From: a bacterium
GTDB lineage: Bacteria > Bacillota > Limnochordia > DTU080 > RSA5
Length of the DNA stretch: 37,202 nt
NCBI GenBank assembly: GCA_002919195.1
Contig: PKEU01000001.1
Coordinates: forward strand, 1-37,202
Reading direction: 5' to 3'
Within the stretch, counting starts at the first letter, position 1. Every line of letters starts with the position of its first letter. Positions 17,845-29,770 of this stretch are shown one piece after another. The translations under genes and the position numbers were made by a program. The notes under the pieces were generated by a model that ran no database searches, was not told the origin of the DNA, and was given only the letters and a program-made list of their open reading frames with translations.

Positions 17845-19281
17845 TCAGTAGTAGCGGCCGCGCCTTAAGAGTTCGGCGGAGGGCATCCTGCCCAGGATGG
17901 GAAGTCCCAGGTAGGACTCAATCTCGTCGGGGCTCTTGAAGGTGGTGTCGAGGAACTCCAGCACAAAGGCGAGCCCGACCCCGACAAAGATGCCCAGGAA
18001 GCCTGCGATCGCCACGCTCAGCATCTTGCGGGGCTTGACGGGAGTTCTGGGCACGATGGCCGGATCCAGGACCGCGACGTTGGCAGCCTCCATGGCTTCG
18101 GTGATGCGAAGCTCTTCATACCGCTGCCGCAACATCGTGTAGATCGTCTCGGTCACGGTGGCGTTGCGCATCAGCCGGGTGAGATGGAGCTCTTTTTCGG
18201 GGAGGCCGCCCAATAAGATCTCGCGCTCCCGGATCATTTCATCGATGGCCTCGATCTTGGCCGTCTGGGCCATGACCTCCGCCTGCAGGGCGATGATTTC
18301 CTCGGACAACCGGCTCTCGGCGCCGGACGACTCCAGCCGGGAGATTTCCCGGTTGAGCTCGGCTCTCAGCTCGTTGATTTGCGCTTGTAGGCCGATTACC
18401 CGGGGGTGTGCGTCGGTGTACTGCTCCCTCGCCGCTGCGAGCTGCGCTTCGAGATTGGCGAGCTGCGATCGGATCCCCGTGATAATCGGGTCAGCGGCGA
18501 TCAAGTTGCTCGAAACCACCGAACGGGTCTCGCTGGAAAGTTCGCCCCGCAGGGCGTTGAGGCGCTCCTGGGCGGCCTGGCGTTGGACCAGCGCCTCAGC
18601 CTTGAGCGTCTCGAGCCGCGTGATGCCGGAGAGGATCGCTTCGCTCTCGCCGGCGGGCTGCACCATGGCCGCCTGCTGGCGAAAGAGCACCAGCTCCTCC
18701 TCGGCCCGTTCCAGGTCGGCCTCAAACTTCTCCAGCTGCTCGGCCAAAAAGGCCCGGGCGGCGCGGACGTTTTCACTGTTCATCTCTTGGATCGTACGGA
18801 CGAAGACATCGACCATGGTGTTGGCGATGCGCATCGCCTCTTGAGGGTCGACGTGCTGCACCGAAATCCGCAGCAGCTCCGAGCCCGTAGCCGACTGGAC
18901 GGTGATGCTGTCGCGAAACTCCTGGAACTCCGGGGAGTATACGTCCCAGTCATAACCCAGCTCGCGCGCCACCCTCAAGGCCAGCGAGCGGCTCTTTAAC
19001 ACTTCGATCGCTCGCTGCATCGCCGTTTGCCGGGTCGTCCCCGTCAACCGTTCAAAGAAAGCGGCCTCGAGAAGCCCCATGCCTTGCTCGCTGACCAGCA
19101 CCGTCGTCGTCGCCTCGTAGACCGGCGTCATCGCGCTGGTCACGAAGTAGGCTGTCGCCGCGGCAAAGAGAAAGAGGCCGAGAACGATCCACTTTCGCCG
19201 CCACAGCGCATGCCACAGTTGACGAAGATCTAGTTCCAATTCTTGATCCATCTCGGCCACGCGGGCCGGCTCTACTGCCAT
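17845..19281 (-). CDS. Wzz/GumC-type polysaccharide chain-length co-polymerase
   Basis: A 478-residue inner-membrane protein with the Wzz layout: an N-terminal cytoplasmic segment (ELDLRQLWHALWRRKW), transmembrane helix 1 (IVLGLFLFAAATAYFVTSAM), a conserved chain-length domain, a long coiled coil of about 200 residues (EQLEKFEADLERAEEELVLFRQQ onwards), and a C-terminal GNVR-like and proline-rich segment (PAIVPRTPVKPRKM) leading into helix 2 (LSVAIAGFLGIFVGVGLAFVLEFL). Such proteins set polymer length and link synthesis to export, and are usually controlled by a tyrosine kinase. No kinase domain is fused here. ATG 19281 is preferred, with GGGGGG about eight bases upstream; GTG 19287 overlaps the kinase stop. 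A strong terminator follows. Confidence 0.9.
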   Translation of the reverse strand: MAVEPARVAEMDQELELDLRQLWHALWRRKWIVLGLFLFAAATAYFVTSAMTPVYEATTTVLVSEQGMGLLEAAFFERLTGTTRQTAMQRAIEVLKSRSLALRVARELGYDWDVYSPEFQEFRDSITVQSATGSELLRISVQHVDPQEAMRIANTMVDVFVRTIQEMNSENVRAARAFLAEQLEKFEADLERAEEELVLFRQQAAMVQPAGESEAILSGITRLETLKAEALVQRQAAQERLNALRGELSSETRSVVSSNLIAADPIITGIRSQLANLEAQLAAAREQYTDAHPRVIGLQAQINELRAELNREISRLESSGAESRLSEEIIALQAEVMAQTAKIEAIDEMIREREILLGGLPEKELHLTRLMRNATVTETIYTMLRQRYEELRITEAMEAANVAVLDPAIVPRTPVKPRKMLSVAIAGFLGIFVGVGLAFVLEFLDTTFKSPDEIESYLGLPILGRMPSAELLRRGRYY

Positions 19282-19283
19282 GC

Positions 19284-20042
19284 TCACCGCCCCCCAAACA
19301 AGCGGGCCAGCGCCCGCCCCATCACGGGTCTCCCGTTGGCGGCGGTCACCCGATCTTCCTCGGAGCCGTAGTAATAGTAGTAGTAATGGCTGTTGCGGCC
19401 GCTATCGATCCGGTTGGCAACGATGCCCAACACTCTGGCGTTGACCTTTTCCAGCTGCTCTTTCGCTTGACGGGCCACTTCCTTGGGGGTGTAACCCACC
19501 CTCACTACCAGGAGGGTGCCGTCCAGCGCCGGAGCCAGCAAGGGCGCGTCGGTCACAGCGATGACCGGCGGCGTGTCAAAGATCACCTTATCGGCCCGGC
19601 TGACCAGCTGTTCGATCAGGGAGCGCATGGCCTGGGAGCCCAGCATCTCCGCCGGATTGGGCGGCACCGGTCCCGAAGCCAGCAGCTGCAGGTTGGGATG
19701 GTCGGTCTTTTGCAAGGCGTCGTCCAGGGTCGCATGGCCTGTCAGCACCGATGTGACCCCGACGCTGTTGTCCCCGCCAAAGAGCTGGTGCACCGACGGC
19801 TTTCTCAGATCCGCGCCGACGATGATCGTGCGGTTTCCCACGTCAGCCAGGGCAAGCGCCAGGTTGGCGGCCACCGTCGTCTTTCCCTCCGCGGGCACCG
19901 CACTGGTCACGACGATGGTTTGCAGCGGTCGATCGAGGCTGATGTATTGCAAATTGGTCCGTAGCGTGCGAACGGCTTCGGCCAGGGGTGATTTTGGATC
20001 ATCTCTGACGTCCAACGGGCGCATACGACTACGCATCCCCAT
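19284..20042 (-). CDS. CpsD/CapB-family bacterial tyrosine kinase
   Basis: A cytoplasmic BY-kinase of about 252 residues. Walker A is SAVPAEGKTT (Lys54), Walker A' IIVGADLRKP (Asp78) and Walker B VIFDTPP (153-159). A run of six tyrosines at 220-225 near the C-terminus is the expected autophosphorylation cluster. In this family the kinase is switched on by a Wzz-like membrane partner, and cycles of phosphorylation control capsule or exopolysaccharide assembly; that partner is the next gene, overlapping by a few bases. ATG 20042 fits the homology, but ATG 20036 or TTG 20072 are also possible because no clear ribosome binding site favours one. The separate-gene arrangement is like Gram-positives, whereas the partner is of the long GumC type. 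Confidence 0.9.
   Translation of the reverse strand: MGMRSRMRPLDVRDDPKSPLAEAVRTLRTNLQYISLDRPLQTIVVTSAVPAEGKTTVAANLALALADVGNRTIIVGADLRKPSVHQLFGGDNSVGVTSVLTGHATLDDALQKTDHPNLQLLASGPVPPNPAEMLGSQAMRSLIEQLVSRADKVIFDTPPVIAVTDAPLLAPALDGTLLVVRVGYTPKEVARQAKEQLEKVNARVLGIVANRIDSGRNSHYYYYYYGSEEDRVTAANGRPVMGRALARLFGGR
19368..19385 (-). repeat. Six-codon tyrosine microsatellite in BY-kinase gene
   Basis: Six consecutive TAC/TAT codons (five TAC, one TAT) form an 18-bp trinucleotide repeat encoding the phosphotyrosine cluster. Slippage would add or remove whole tyrosines without breaking the frame. Confidence 0.7.
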
Positions 20043-20228
20043 TTCTCGTCCGTTTTCCCGTGACCTCGCCAAATGTCACGCGATGCCCCCAAAACCTCAA
20101 CCAAGCGCACGAAAGAACGGGCAACTCCGGCTGGTTGATTTTGTTCGTCCCCCCGGAAAGCGTATCCTTTTTCAGAAAGCAAGAACTCCCTCCTAGCTGG
20201 GCCCGAGGGACGATCCCGAGGACACCGA

Positions 20229-20272
20229 TAGGACTTTTGGACTATCACGGAGTAGGACTTTAAATTAGGACC
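20229..20272 (-). promoter_or_regulatory. Direct repeats with GTCC core upstream of kinase/Wzz operon
   Basis: Reading the minus strand, AAAGTCCTA occurs twice (at 20261-20253 and 20237-20229), with related ATAGTCCAA (20245-20237) and GGTCCTA (20272-20266). They lie about 190 bases before the kinase start, next to possible promoter elements. They look like sites for a DNA-binding regulator. The same core recurs in another promoter region at 31039-31064. Confidence 0.4.
20237..20265 (+). promoter_or_regulatory. Possible plus-strand promoter in the non-coding region
   Basis: TTGGAC (20237-20242) and TTAAAT (20260-20265) are 17 bases apart. A transcript from here would run through two hairpins and end at the terminator-like hairpin 20469-20505, giving an RNA of about 230 nt. 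Weak matches; low confidence. Confidence 0.25.
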
Positions 20273-20468
20273 AGAATCTTATCGCACAAGGGAAGGAGAT
20301 TCCACGGAAATCGTTAACTTCTATGACCGACTGCAAGGCAACTGGAAGGCGGCGAGACCCCCGGACTCCCCACACCCCCGTCGCCTGACCAGTTCCCATG
20401 CGCCCTACCGTCATATCGGACCGCCGCATCCCCCCGAAATGCGCGGTTCCGAATGGTAGGTCCCACAT

Positions 20469-20506
20469 GAAGGGCCGGTAGAATACCGGTCCTTCGCCCT
20501 TTTAAT
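20469..20506 (+). terminator. Terminator-like hairpin, plus strand
   Basis: GAAGGGCCGGTA (20469-20480) and TACCGGTCCTTC (20484-20495) pair over 12 bp with a GAA loop. The one non-Watson-Crick pair is G-U on the plus strand but A-C on the minus strand, and the sequence GCCCTTTTAAT follows, so plus-strand RNA fits best. No gene lies just upstream, which implies a short non-coding transcript. Confidence 0.5.
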
Positions 20507-20549
20507 ATCCGTTTTCCAGTCCTTGTCTTTTCCATGGCACCCTCGCACC

Positions 20550-20601
20550 AACAAGAAAAAGCCGGAACACCCTCCTCCAACGATGAGGAGGGGCCCCCGG
20601 C
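20550..20601 (-). terminator. Intrinsic terminator, minus strand, in kinase upstream region
   Basis: A two-tier stem (GCCGG/CCGGC outside, CCCTCCTC/GAGGAGGG inside, 7-nt loop) is followed on the minus strand by TTTTTCTTGTT. Any minus-strand transcript begun in 20610-20820 would stop here, more than 500 bases before the kinase gene, as in an attenuated leader or a stand-alone RNA. Confidence 0.65.
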
Positions 20602-20614
20602 CTCGGTCAATAGA

Positions 20615-20730
20615 TACGACGGGCAGGCTCACATTCCTTCCTGCTCGCGGCAATCCTGCCCGAAAATGTCGAAGCACGCCTAGCGATTCACAATCTCACC
20701 GCTAGAAGCAGGACTTTCCCGCTTTTTATT
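20615..20730 (-). ncRNA. Candidate structured RNA (three hairpins before a terminator)
   Basis: On the minus strand three stem-loops follow each other: AGCGGGA/TCCTGCT (20723-20707, triloop, one G-U pair that favours this strand), CTAGCG/CGCTAG (20705-20680) and GGGCAGG/CCTGCCC (20661-20621), then the terminator at 20601-20550. This could be a riboswitch-like leader or a small RNA. No known class is recognised, and no promoter is obvious. Confidence 0.35.
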
Positions 20731-20821
20731 GAAGTTTGCACACCCACCCACTCTCCACCACGCCTCCCATGACGGGAAGCGCGCGAAAAGGGCGCGACAA
20801 CCATCATGGAGGCGATCCTCT

Positions 20822-21790
20822 TTGACAGAGCCGCATGCAACCGCGGTGACGACGGAGGTTGCCGTCGTACCAGAGCCGCAGTGGGCCCCACCTTCCCGCC
20901 GGCCTCTCGCCCACTGGATCGTCGCCTTCGTCGTACACCTCGAGACCGCCGAAGGAAAGAGCAAGAGCACCGTGCGCCACTACGCGCACGACCTCGACCT
21001 CTTTTCCCGGTACTTGAGCGCCTACGCACCGTGGGTCGTCACGCCGGAGGACGTAACCAGCCAGATCATCACCGGCTTTCTCCGTTACATGCGGGTGGTG
21101 CGGGGCAACAGCGCGACCAGCACCAAAAGGCGGCTCTCGTCGCTGCGCCGCTTCTTCGGTTACCTCGTGCAGTGCGGCGAGATCTCCCACGATCCCACCG
21201 CCCCTTTGCCCATGGTGCAGTCCCGCTCCCGCCCGGCTCCGGCCCTCACCCGGGAGGAGGCTTTGCGTTTTCTCGAAGCCTCCAAGACGACGAGCTTTCC
21301 CACCCGGGACCATGCGATCTTTCGCCTCTTTTTGACCTGCGGCTGCACTCTCTCGGAGCTTCTCGACCTCAAGGTGGGCGACTTCGATCCGGATGAAAGC
21401 ACCATCACCTTTCGCGGGCGCAGCCGCCGCACCCTCTCACTGCCGCCCGCTTGCCGCCAAGCGCTCCTCGATTACCTCAGCGACCGCCCCAAAGCGCCCG
21501 CCTCGTCCCAGCTCTTCCTCAACCGCCTTGGCCGGGGGATCAAACGAGGCGCGGTTTACTACGCCTTTGATCTCATCCTCCGGCGATCGGGGATCAACAA
21601 ACCGGGCCTCACTATCCACTCTTTGCGCCGCACCTGCTTGACGCTGCTTTGGGAAGCCGGCATCAGCCTCCACGCCCTCCAGCAGATCGCAGGGCTCTCG
21701 TCGCTGGGCAGCACCCGGGAGTACATCCAGGTGGAGGCACGCCCGAGCTCCCATCCGCCGTGGAAGTGGCAGCATCCTCTCGAGGAGTGA
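20822..21790 (+). CDS. Degenerate tyrosine recombinase/integrase (XerC/D-like)
   Basis: About 322 residues in the two-domain XerC/D layout: a SAM-like N-terminal core-binding domain (TVRHYAHDLDLFSRYLSAY, STKRRLSSLRRFFGYLV) and a C-terminal catalytic domain. The HxxR motif (HSLR) and the nucleophile Tyr (STREYIQV) are present. However the first catalytic Arg, normally in TGLRVSEL, is Thr here (CGCTLSEL), and the His/Trp of the GH motif is Leu (AGLSS). The beta-hairpin Lys region reads RGRSRRT. Strand exchange should be badly impaired. TTG 20822 is chosen because GGAGG at 20808-20812 is nine bases upstream; the frame is open to 20729. There is no sign of a prophage or integrative element around it. 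It may be a DNA-binding regulator now. Confidence 0.8.
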   Translation: MTEPHATAVTTEVAVVPEPQWAPPSRRPLAHWIVAFVVHLETAEGKSKSTVRHYAHDLDLFSRYLSAYAPWVVTPEDVTSQIITGFLRYMRVVRGNSATSTKRRLSSLRRFFGYLVQCGEISHDPTAPLPMVQSRSRPAPALTREEALRFLEASKTTSFPTRDHAIFRLFLTCGCTLSELLDLKVGDFDPDESTITFRGRSRRTLSLPPACRQALLDYLSDRPKAPASSQLFLNRLGRGIKRGAVYYAFDLILRRSGINKPGLTIHSLRRTCLTLLWEAGISLHALQQIAGLSSLGSTREYIQVEARPSSHPPWKWQHPLEE

Positions 21791-27172: not shown

Positions 27173-29659
27173 TCAGTCTTCGAGCAGATCTTTGATCAGT
27201 TTGACGCCAGTCAAAAACGTGATCACATCCTGCCAGCGGATGCGGTTGCTCCGCGGGACCACGACGACCCCGCCATCCTCAAGCTCCACGCCGCTTTCCC
27301 GCACCTTTTCGGCATCCAGCCGGTCGTAGAGGCCCAGGTTGACCTGGAGGCGCTCGCCGCTTTGCAACACGTTGACCCGCTCCAGCGCAGCCCTTTCTCC
27401 TGCGCCTCCGGCCGCCGCCAGAGCGTCGACCAGCCGGGTGTTGCCCGAGAGGGTGTACGTTCCGGGCCGGGCAACTTCGCCGATGACGCTGACGGCCGCC
27501 ACGTCGGCGGGCACGTAGATCACGTCGCCCTCGACGATCCGCAGGTTCTCGCTGGAAGCCGGCTCCCTGAGCAGAGCCTCCACGTCGACGGTATACGAGG
27601 CCGGCTCTTCACCATGGTTTCGGTAGACCCGGACCGCCCGCCAGTTGCCATGGGGCTCCGGACCCCCGATAGCCGCGACCACGTCGAGGAGCCGGCTGTC
27701 TCTGGGCACCCGGATCCGCCCGGTCACCGAGGCTTCACCGACGACAAACACTTCCATTACTTTGCTGGGAACATACACCGTCTGGCCCGGCTCCACCAGC
27801 GGATTTTGGTACAGCGATCCGCTGAAAACCTCTTGATCGTGCTCGGCGTAAAGCGTCACGTTGTCCACGTCGGCATCGAGCGTGGGACCGCCGGCCTGGT
27901 AGACGGCATCGATCAAGCGCGCCCCTGGTAGATAGGGATACGCTCCCGGACGAGCCACTTCGCCGGCTACGTAGACCACCCGCGACGTGCGGGGCACATT
28001 GACGATGTCGCCGTCTTGCAACAGCAGATTTTCGCCCCGGCCGGCCAGGATGGCCTCAAAATCGACCGGGATCACTTCCTGCCCGCCGAGCGTCGACCGG
28101 GTGACCGTCAGGCGGCTGAGGTCGGCATTTTCGGTGGCGCCGCCCGCCGCCAAGATGGCGTCCGTCACCCGGCTTTGGCTCTTGAGGCGAAAGACGCCGT
28201 TGGTGCGAACCTCGCCTGCCACCGCCACCTGGATCGTCGGCCGGACGTAGATCACGTCGCCCGGCTGGACCACGGGGTTTTCCGCTCCCTCGTCGCCGGC
28301 GAGGATCCGCTCGATGTTGATCACCGACGTGACCGCCTCGCCCGACGGGCGCTCCCGCCGTAGAATAATGCCCGACGGATCCGCCTCGGGGAGCACACCT
28401 CCCGCTTGCGCCAGCACTCCCAAGACGCGCTCGCCTGCGCGCACCTCCAACGTGCCAGGCCGGGCGACCAGCCCCATGACCGTCACCTGGACGACGCCCC
28501 GGGGCACGTAGACGATGTTGCCTACCTCCACCACCGGGTTTTCCGCCGCCTCGCCTTCAAAGAGCACGTCGCCCGTTCCGATGGGCGCCTCCCTAAAGTC
28601 GCGAATATCGCCGCCGTCATAGATCTTTACCCGAGCCAGGTCGGCCTGCGGCGTCGTGCCGCCTGCCCGGGCGATGAGCTCCATGAGCCGCGGCTGCCGG
28701 CCCGGTTCGACAGGGTACGCCCCGGGGTTTCGCACCTCACCCAGCACAAAGATCTCGGGGTCGGCTTCGAGCGGCGGCACGTAGACAATGTGCCCCACTG
28801 CGACCACAGGGTTGTCCGCGACTTCACCTTCAAAGAGCACGCCCCGGGCCCCGATGGGCGCTTCCCGGAAATCCCGGATATCACCGCCGTCATAGATCCT
28901 CACCCGGGCCAGATCCGCAGACGGCGTCGTGCCGCCCGCCCGGGCGATGAGCTCTAGAAGCCTCGGTTCTCTGCCGGGCTCCAACGGGTACGCCCCGGGG
29001 TTTCGCACCTCGCCCAACACAAAGATCTCCCGCTCCGCGTCGAGCGGCGGCACGTAGACGATGTTGCCCACCGCCACCGGCGGGTTTTCCGCCGCCTCGC
29101 CTTCAAACAGCACGCCTTCGGCGCCGATGGGCGCTTCTTTGTAATCCCTGACGTTGCCCCGCTGGTACACCTTGACCTTGGCCAGATCGGCCATGGGCGT
29201 GGTGCCTCCCGCCAGGGCGATGGCCTCCAAGAGATCGACGGTTTGCCCGGCTACAGGGTACACCCCGGGCATTCGCACCTCTCCCAGCACCACGACGGAC
29301 GGGCCCTTGCCCGGACGCACATTGACGCTCACCACCGGGGTGCGGACGACCGCCGACAGCACCTCGGTCACCCGCTCAGCCACCTCGGCGGCCGTAAGGT
29401 TCCACACGTCGAGGACACCGACAAAGGGGTAAGAGATCGTCCCGTCGGGCAAGACGAGGATGTCGAGGGTAAGATCGGGCTGCCCGTAAACGACGATCGT
29501 CATCACGTCGCCGGGCTGGATGCGATAGGCCCCGCCGGCTGCCTCCTGGACGGACTGGTTATCCGCAGCGTAAGCCGTCCCGTGCGCCGGAGCCGAAACC
29601 GCGATGGCTGCAAACAAAAAAAGCAAGAAACCCAACAGTCGACGTCGCTGCATGCTCAC
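27173..29659 (-). CDS. Polysaccharide export protein (Wza/OPX type) with eight SLBB repeats
   Basis: About 828 residues. A signal peptide (LLGFLLFLFAAIAVSAPAHGTAYA) without lipobox is followed by a Poly_export domain (YRIQPGDVMTIVVYGQPDLTLDILVLPDGTISYPFVG) and then eight SLBB units, each opening with a strand like VLGEVRNPGAYPV and closing in VYVPP or similar. The C-terminus has a short amphipathic helix (WQDVITFLTGVKLIKDLLED), possibly the membrane-spanning helix as in Wza. Wza has about 380 residues with few such domains, so this protein is roughly twice as long. Units 1-3 are nearly identical at DNA level. OPX proteins form the outer-membrane or envelope exit for capsule and exopolysaccharide. 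GTG 29659 has GGAGG six bases upstream; ATG 29653 is an alternative. It lies about 7 kb from the kinase/Wzz pair. Confidence 0.9.
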   Translation of the reverse strand: MSMQRRRLLGFLLFLFAAIAVSAPAHGTAYAADNQSVQEAAGGAYRIQPGDVMTIVVYGQPDLTLDILVLPDGTISYPFVGVLDVWNLTAAEVAERVTEVLSAVVRTPVVSVNVRPGKGPSVVVLGEVRMPGVYPVAGQTVDLLEAIALAGGTTPMADLAKVKVYQRGNVRDYKEAPIGAEGVLFEGEAAENPPVAVGNIVYVPPLDAEREIFVLGEVRNPGAYPLEPGREPRLLELIARAGGTTPSADLARVRIYDGGDIRDFREAPIGARGVLFEGEVADNPVVAVGHIVYVPPLEADPEIFVLGEVRNPGAYPVEPGRQPRLMELIARAGGTTPQADLARVKIYDGGDIRDFREAPIGTGDVLFEGEAAENPVVEVGNIVYVPRGVVQVTVMGLVARPGTLEVRAGERVLGVLAQAGGVLPEADPSGIILRRERPSGEAVTSVINIERILAGDEGAENPVVQPGDVIYVRPTIQVAVAGEVRTNGVFRLKSQSRVTDAILAAGGATENADLSRLTVTRSTLGGQEVIPVDFEAILAGRGENLLLQDGDIVNVPRTSRVVYVAGEVARPGAYPYLPGARLIDAVYQAGGPTLDADVDNVTLYAEHDQEVFSGSLYQNPLVEPGQTVYVPSKVMEVFVVGEASVTGRIRVPRDSRLLDVVAAIGGPEPHGNWRAVRVYRNHGEEPASYTVDVEALLREPASSENLRIVEGDVIYVPADVAAVSVIGEVARPGTYTLSGNTRLVDALAAAGGAGERAALERVNVLQSGERLQVNLGLYDRLDAEKVRESGVELEDGGVVVVPRSNRIRWQDVITFLTGVKLIKDLLED
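28511..29329 (-). repeat. Tandem 273-bp repeats within the SLBB gene
   Basis: Three copies of a 273-bp (91-codon) unit stand head to tail, phased by the VYVPP codons whose first bases on the minus strand are 28510, 28783 and 29056. Units encode SLBB domains with GEVRNPGAYP and RAGGTTP motifs; the first two copies from the left are most alike. They are recent duplications and a likely site of homologous copy-number change. Confidence 0.8.
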
Positions 29660-29770
29660 ACCCGTCCTCCAACGAGATAAACGCCTATCGTGGAGATGTA
29701 TCACGTCGAAAAGCACCCGATCGATGGGAAATGGTTTTCTACTCCCTGCCTGCATTTCCTCGTAACCCCA

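Follow-up and report, generated by a model that had tools for sequence, protein, structure and literature searches.

The window (the whole stretch of DNA analysed, 37,202 nucleotides) is one contig of a draft genome of 3.13 Mb in 219 contigs. A structured region is located between a polysaccharide tyrosine kinase gene on the minus strand and an Xer-like tyrosine recombinase gene on the plus strand. An earlier note had described positions 20330–20730 as densely folded and non-coding, and had proposed either one or two non-coding RNAs or an attenuated leader of the polysaccharide operon. From its sequence and modelled fold, the segment at positions 20328–20506 of the plus strand probably encodes a previously undescribed small RNA of ~175–180 nt (about 178), with an extent that is set by conservation in a second genome of the same family, here termed the sister genome. 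The features of the region are as follows.

19284–20072, minus strand: polysaccharide tyrosine kinase gene (TIGR01007, above cut-off)
20328–20506, plus strand: conserved putative small RNA gene (79% identity to L010:1501–1675 of the sister genome; z = −6.6; 50 pairs)
20332–20402, plus strand: hairpin H1 (predicted fold, two-sequence consensus)
20337–20344 with 20390–20396, plus strand: H1 outer stem, one compensated pair, with a short extra pairing outside it
20348–20356 with 20377–20385, plus strand: H1 inner stem, invariant
20356–20378, plus strand: C-rich loop region of H1, GACCCCCGGACTCCCCACACCCC, without differences between the two genomes and predicted to be mostly unpaired
20404–20460, plus strand: hairpin H2, whose long stem has five compensated pairs and a single pair changed on one side
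20430–20438, plus strand: H2 loop, CCCCCCGAA, invariant and predicted to be mostly unpaired in both genomes
20469–20506, plus strand: H3, intrinsic terminator by pattern, a 12-bp hairpin (20469–20495) followed by a U-tract; conserved
20557–20605, minus strand: terminator-like hairpin, then T5 (20556–20560); outside the small RNA and not conserved in the sister genome
20761–20814, plus strand: predicted hairpin hiding the Shine-Dalgarno (SD) sequence of the recombinase gene (GGAGG, 20808–20812)
20822–21790, plus strand: Xer-like tyrosine recombinase gene (Pfam Phage_integrase; TTG start inferred)

Folding and conservation of the region

Compared with shuffled sequences, the whole 401-nt region displays z-scores of −4.7 on the plus strand and −4.25 on the minus strand. 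When the region is subdivided, the signal is found almost entirely in the plus strand of positions 20330–20506 (z = −6.6, with −3.4 for the minus strand of the same stretch). The z-scores of positions 20507–20730 are −2.5 (plus) and −2.3 (minus), and positions 20100–20329 show no folding signal relative to shuffles. Hairpins are present as the earlier note had it, but the signal is not spread over the entire region that it outlined.

Two terminator-like patterns are found. One is on the plus strand, the hairpin at 20469–20495 with its U-tract, and the other is on the minus strand, where a hairpin at 20561–20601 is followed by T5 at 20556–20560. A count of two such patterns per 1 kb does not exceed chance (expected 1.3, standard deviation 1.4). 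The plus-strand terminator, which had been recognised earlier at 20469–20506, is credible through its conservation in the sister genome, where the U-tract is T6, and not through the pattern count. The minus-strand U-tract terminator that had been placed at 20550–20601 is present as a pattern but is not conserved.

A BLASTN search of positions 20200–20730 against 100 relatives gives a single strong match (79% identity, E-value = 2e-31), which covers window positions 20328–20503. The matching sequence is on contig PKEX01000003.1 of the sister genome, which is metagenome-assembled, is the sole other family member compared and is of a different genus. The match starts 9 nt before the H1 outer stem and stops at the plus-strand terminator. 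The remaining hits among the 100 relatives have E-values of at least 0.0018 and span 23–28 bases, which is of chance size, and positions 20507–20730 show no convincing BLASTN alignment in any of these relatives.

In a comparison of 1.18 Mb of this genome with 1.49 Mb of the sister genome, in which homology defined the coding regions, BLASTN leaves 33 non-coding alignments, some of the lower entries being gene fragments at the ends of stretches. The small RNA is third at 132 bits and is preceded by a tRNA (157 bits) and a T-box leader (139 bits). Separately, three places of the sister genome carry copies of a non-coding element of 48–52 nt that is 92–94% identical (coordinates listed for the element: L209:16713–16764, L188:4200–4251, L155:1052–1099 and L171:13244–13290). 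It resembles the SAM-I riboswitch core in reverse complement, although at L209 it has no gathering-level Rfam match.

The two-sequence consensus of three hairpins has no broken pair among 50, with two-sided changes at seven pairs and one-sided changes at three, counts that rest on two sequences from which the structure itself was derived. Sliding the partners by 1–3 columns reduces the paired cells from 100% to 36–46%. The changes in the stems are compensated, and the tips of H1 and H2 are unchanged except for one base, a length difference in a C-run; apart from this difference H1 is identical over ~40 nt of inner stem and loop. Within the limits of two sequences, this pattern of changes is as expected for a functional RNA. 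Covarying base pairs in related genomes, which had been named beforehand as support, are thus found for the plus-strand RNA, in one relative.

Six cells of the consensus pair as G-U when the plus strand is read, and the minus strand would have C-A mismatches there. These cells and the U-tract favour the plus strand, and the suggestion that G-U pairs indicate the strand in use holds for the plus-strand RNA. The aligned block contains single-base indels as well as compensated changes and therefore a coding region is argued against.

For the minus strand, the earlier proposal was that the polysaccharide (Wzz/tyrosine kinase) operon has an attenuated leader. The hairpin at 20561–20601 with its T5 is upstream of the kinase gene and on the right strand for such a leader. 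However, the hairpin is not conserved in the 100 relatives, its stretch has a z-score of only −2.3, the pattern count is within chance, and the sister genome carries the RNA but not the kinase. In addition, the operon and the conserved RNA are on different strands. This leader is regarded as very improbable and the proposal is set aside. As to the one or two non-coding RNAs proposed earlier, a plus-strand RNA ending at 20469–20506 is retained, but for a minus-strand RNA nothing aligns convincingly in the 100 relatives.

Distribution and gene context

Among 73 genomes of the class and a sample of 398 genomes of the phylum, a covariance model of the RNA has hits in these two only, and a search of six genomes of the order likewise gives the RNA in the same two. 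The 23-nt H1 loop, with up to 3 mismatches allowed, is unique to the two genomes within the class. Each genome has a single copy of the small RNA. Searches of plasmids and phages, and pattern searches of viral contigs and genome contigs, did not find it beyond the sister genome, a protein search of genome contigs with the recombinase gave no matches, and the RNA is absent upstream of the recombinase homologs of other class members.

The window displays no Rfam family and no tRNA, in agreement with the earlier remark that no known class could be recognised. With relaxed Rfam thresholds the region shows chance-level hits only, and it is matched by no Rfam model of the known riboswitch or leader families. 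6S RNA (RF00013) is comparable in size and in its layout as an independent gene but differs in shape; the region does not match the 6S model, and the genome's own 6S RNA is on another contig (C7:20573–20764).

No sigma-70-like promoter was found for the small RNA. An AT-rich block, GGACT-TTAAATTAGG, is located at 20252–20268, ~60–75 nt upstream of the RNA, and is conserved in the sister genome, which has GGACTATAAAAATAGG. The block is a possible promoter, on either strand.

The gene order common to both genomes is a C39 peptidase-like protein (51% identity between the two), the RNA, the recombinase (62%; counterpart in the sister genome at L034:2285–3286), a histidine kinase (74%) and a response regulator. 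Only here is the C39 peptidase gene separated from the RNA by the tyrosine kinase gene and a Wzz-like gene (17845–20072, minus strand). Since this polysaccharide module is found between the peptidase and the RNA here and not in the sister genome, the gene orders indicate that the locus has gained or lost it. By synteny, the RNA goes with the recombinase and its side of the locus rather than with the polysaccharide operon, because the kinase and the chain-length protein intervene only here and the kinase has no match in the sister genome at E ≤ 1e-20. Elsewhere in the window, positions 27173–29755 of the minus strand encode an 860-aa polysaccharide export protein that has five to six stretches matching EpsE-type models, and this long repeat architecture is unusual.

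The recombinase falls far short of the cut-offs for XerC and XerD. In both genomes it is without the first catalytic arginine (ArgI), Arg being replaced by Thr (CGCTLSEL versus CGCRLSEL or similar in homologs), and R stands in the region of the catalytic lysine. The protein may bind DNA without having recombinase activity.

The least probable of the readings considered is that of a DNA-level element, which the neighbouring recombinase would use either as a recombination site or as a G-rich (quadruplex-like) strand. The recombinase neighbour and the G-runs on the complementary strand of H1 are in keeping with such an element. However, the sequence is single copy in each genome, the G-runs of H1 number only three, the terminator and the G-U-tolerant covariation point to an RNA, and the recombinase is without ArgI.

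The main rival to an independent small RNA is a cis-acting leader, riboswitch- or attenuator-like, which would control the downstream recombinase gene by premature termination. The RNA and the recombinase gene share a strand, the RNA is directly upstream in both genomes, a terminator ends it, and the invariant tip of H1 could be a sensing core. In both genomes a hairpin hides the SD sequence of the recombinase gene, the hairpin of the sister genome being predicted at L010:1745–1798 despite a different sequence. This SD hairpin looks, in the folding models, like a guard against read-through translation. However, the distance from terminator to start codon varies, from ~320 nt here to ~130 nt in the sister genome, and except for the SD hairpin nothing between these two points is conserved in sequence or as a hairpin. 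In addition the terminator is complete, the predicted structures show no alternative pairing that would open it, and class members with homologous recombinases are without the RNA. A leader of the recombinase gene is thus considered unlikely.

C-rich loops and proposed function

The reading that we consider moderately probable is an independent trans-acting small RNA of the Firmicutes UCCC/C-rich-loop kind, which would block SD sequences. The RNA would be transcribed towards the recombinase gene and end at its own intrinsic terminator. Its two long predicted hairpins would present invariant C-rich loops, ACUCCCC...CCCC in H1 and AUCCCCCCGAA in H2, in which the UCCC motif of Firmicutes small RNAs occurs. 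The C-rich loops would most likely pair with the G-rich SD regions of mRNAs encoded elsewhere in the genome, and translation of the presumed targets would thereby be repressed. A trans-acting translational repressor is favoured because of an anatomy like that of IsrR, the UCCC motif, and C-runs that are predicted to be mostly unpaired in both genomes.

IsrR, the iron-sparing small RNA of Staphylococcus, is 174 nt long and has C-rich loops in its first two hairpins, a terminator, and pairing to SD sequences (PMC9410917). The RNA described here has a similar length (~175 nt), C-rich loops on the first two hairpins, an intrinsic terminator and loops that could match SD sequences; the likeness is one of layout, with no sequence relation shown. 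A third hairpin before the terminator and Fur control are IsrR's own, and here H1 has a much longer C-rich loop and the host genome is GC-rich.

Pairing of UCCC to SD sequences has been described for RNAIII, RsaE, SprD, FsrA and LhrC (PMC4132741). The RNA shares with these small RNAs (RsaE/RoxS, FsrA, LhrC, RNAIII, SprD) a Firmicutes-type host and UCCC motifs and C-runs located in exposed loops, which in H1 and H2 are predicted to be single-stranded. It differs from them in structure, sequence and neighbouring genes. Yfr1 of cyanobacteria is 54–69 nt long and displays an ultraconserved 11-nt motif, ACUCCUCACAC, unpaired between two hairpins (PMC2190773). The loop word ACUCCCCACAC is one base from this motif and both RNAs end in a terminator. 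Yfr1 was rejected as an identity, given the one mismatch, the location of the word within a hairpin loop and the RNA length of ~178 nt.

The near-identity of the H1 inner stem and loop over ~40 nt exceeds the needs of mRNA pairing, which alone does not require the inner stem to be invariant as well. A structural or protein-binding RNA would account for this, with the invariant tips of H1 and H2 binding a protein (possibly the recombinase relative) or a small molecule in place of mRNAs. The RNA is linked in both genomes to a recombinase without the first catalytic Arg, but the linkage may be plain synteny, as the C39 peptidase and histidine kinase genes are also kept nearby. To our knowledge no RNA-binding role has been described for such recombinase-like proteins. 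This alternative is judged quite unlikely. An even lower probability is given to its more specific form, in which the ~40-nt H1 tip would be a new ligand- or protein-binding core and the RNA and the adjacent altered recombinase relative would form an RNA-protein regulator.

With respect to pairing by a trans-acting repressor, the loops prefer ribosome-binding sites over coding sequence, but on average shuffled loops of the same composition do likewise. A weak signal for ribosome-binding sites relative to shuffled loops is seen for H2 only, whose best conserved duplexes beat about 92–98% of shuffled loops, part of this signal being also inside coding sequence. GGGGGG, which is complementary to the H2 loop, is found before the start codon in both genomes in 5 of 511 ortholog pairs (0.94 expected), a retention no higher than that of other SD variants. 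The five genes encode KhpB/Jag, ribosomal protein L9, the 20-kDa subunit of NADH dehydrogenase, SAM hydroxide adenosyltransferase and an S1-domain protein, and are candidate targets only. A C-run is a less specific anti-SD sequence in these GC-rich genomes than in the AT-rich Staphylococcus.

Judged by its modelled fold and by analogy, the small RNA probably represents a new family within a functional kind that is already known, and its known distribution is narrow. With two members the effect is modest: a bacterial lineage that is mostly uncultured and has received little study gains an RNA family that was undescribed before and has structural support. The find also suggests that mRNA silencing by C-rich loops, which has been studied in AT-rich Firmicutes, may operate in a relative of high GC content, in which it is harder for an anti-SD sequence to be specific.
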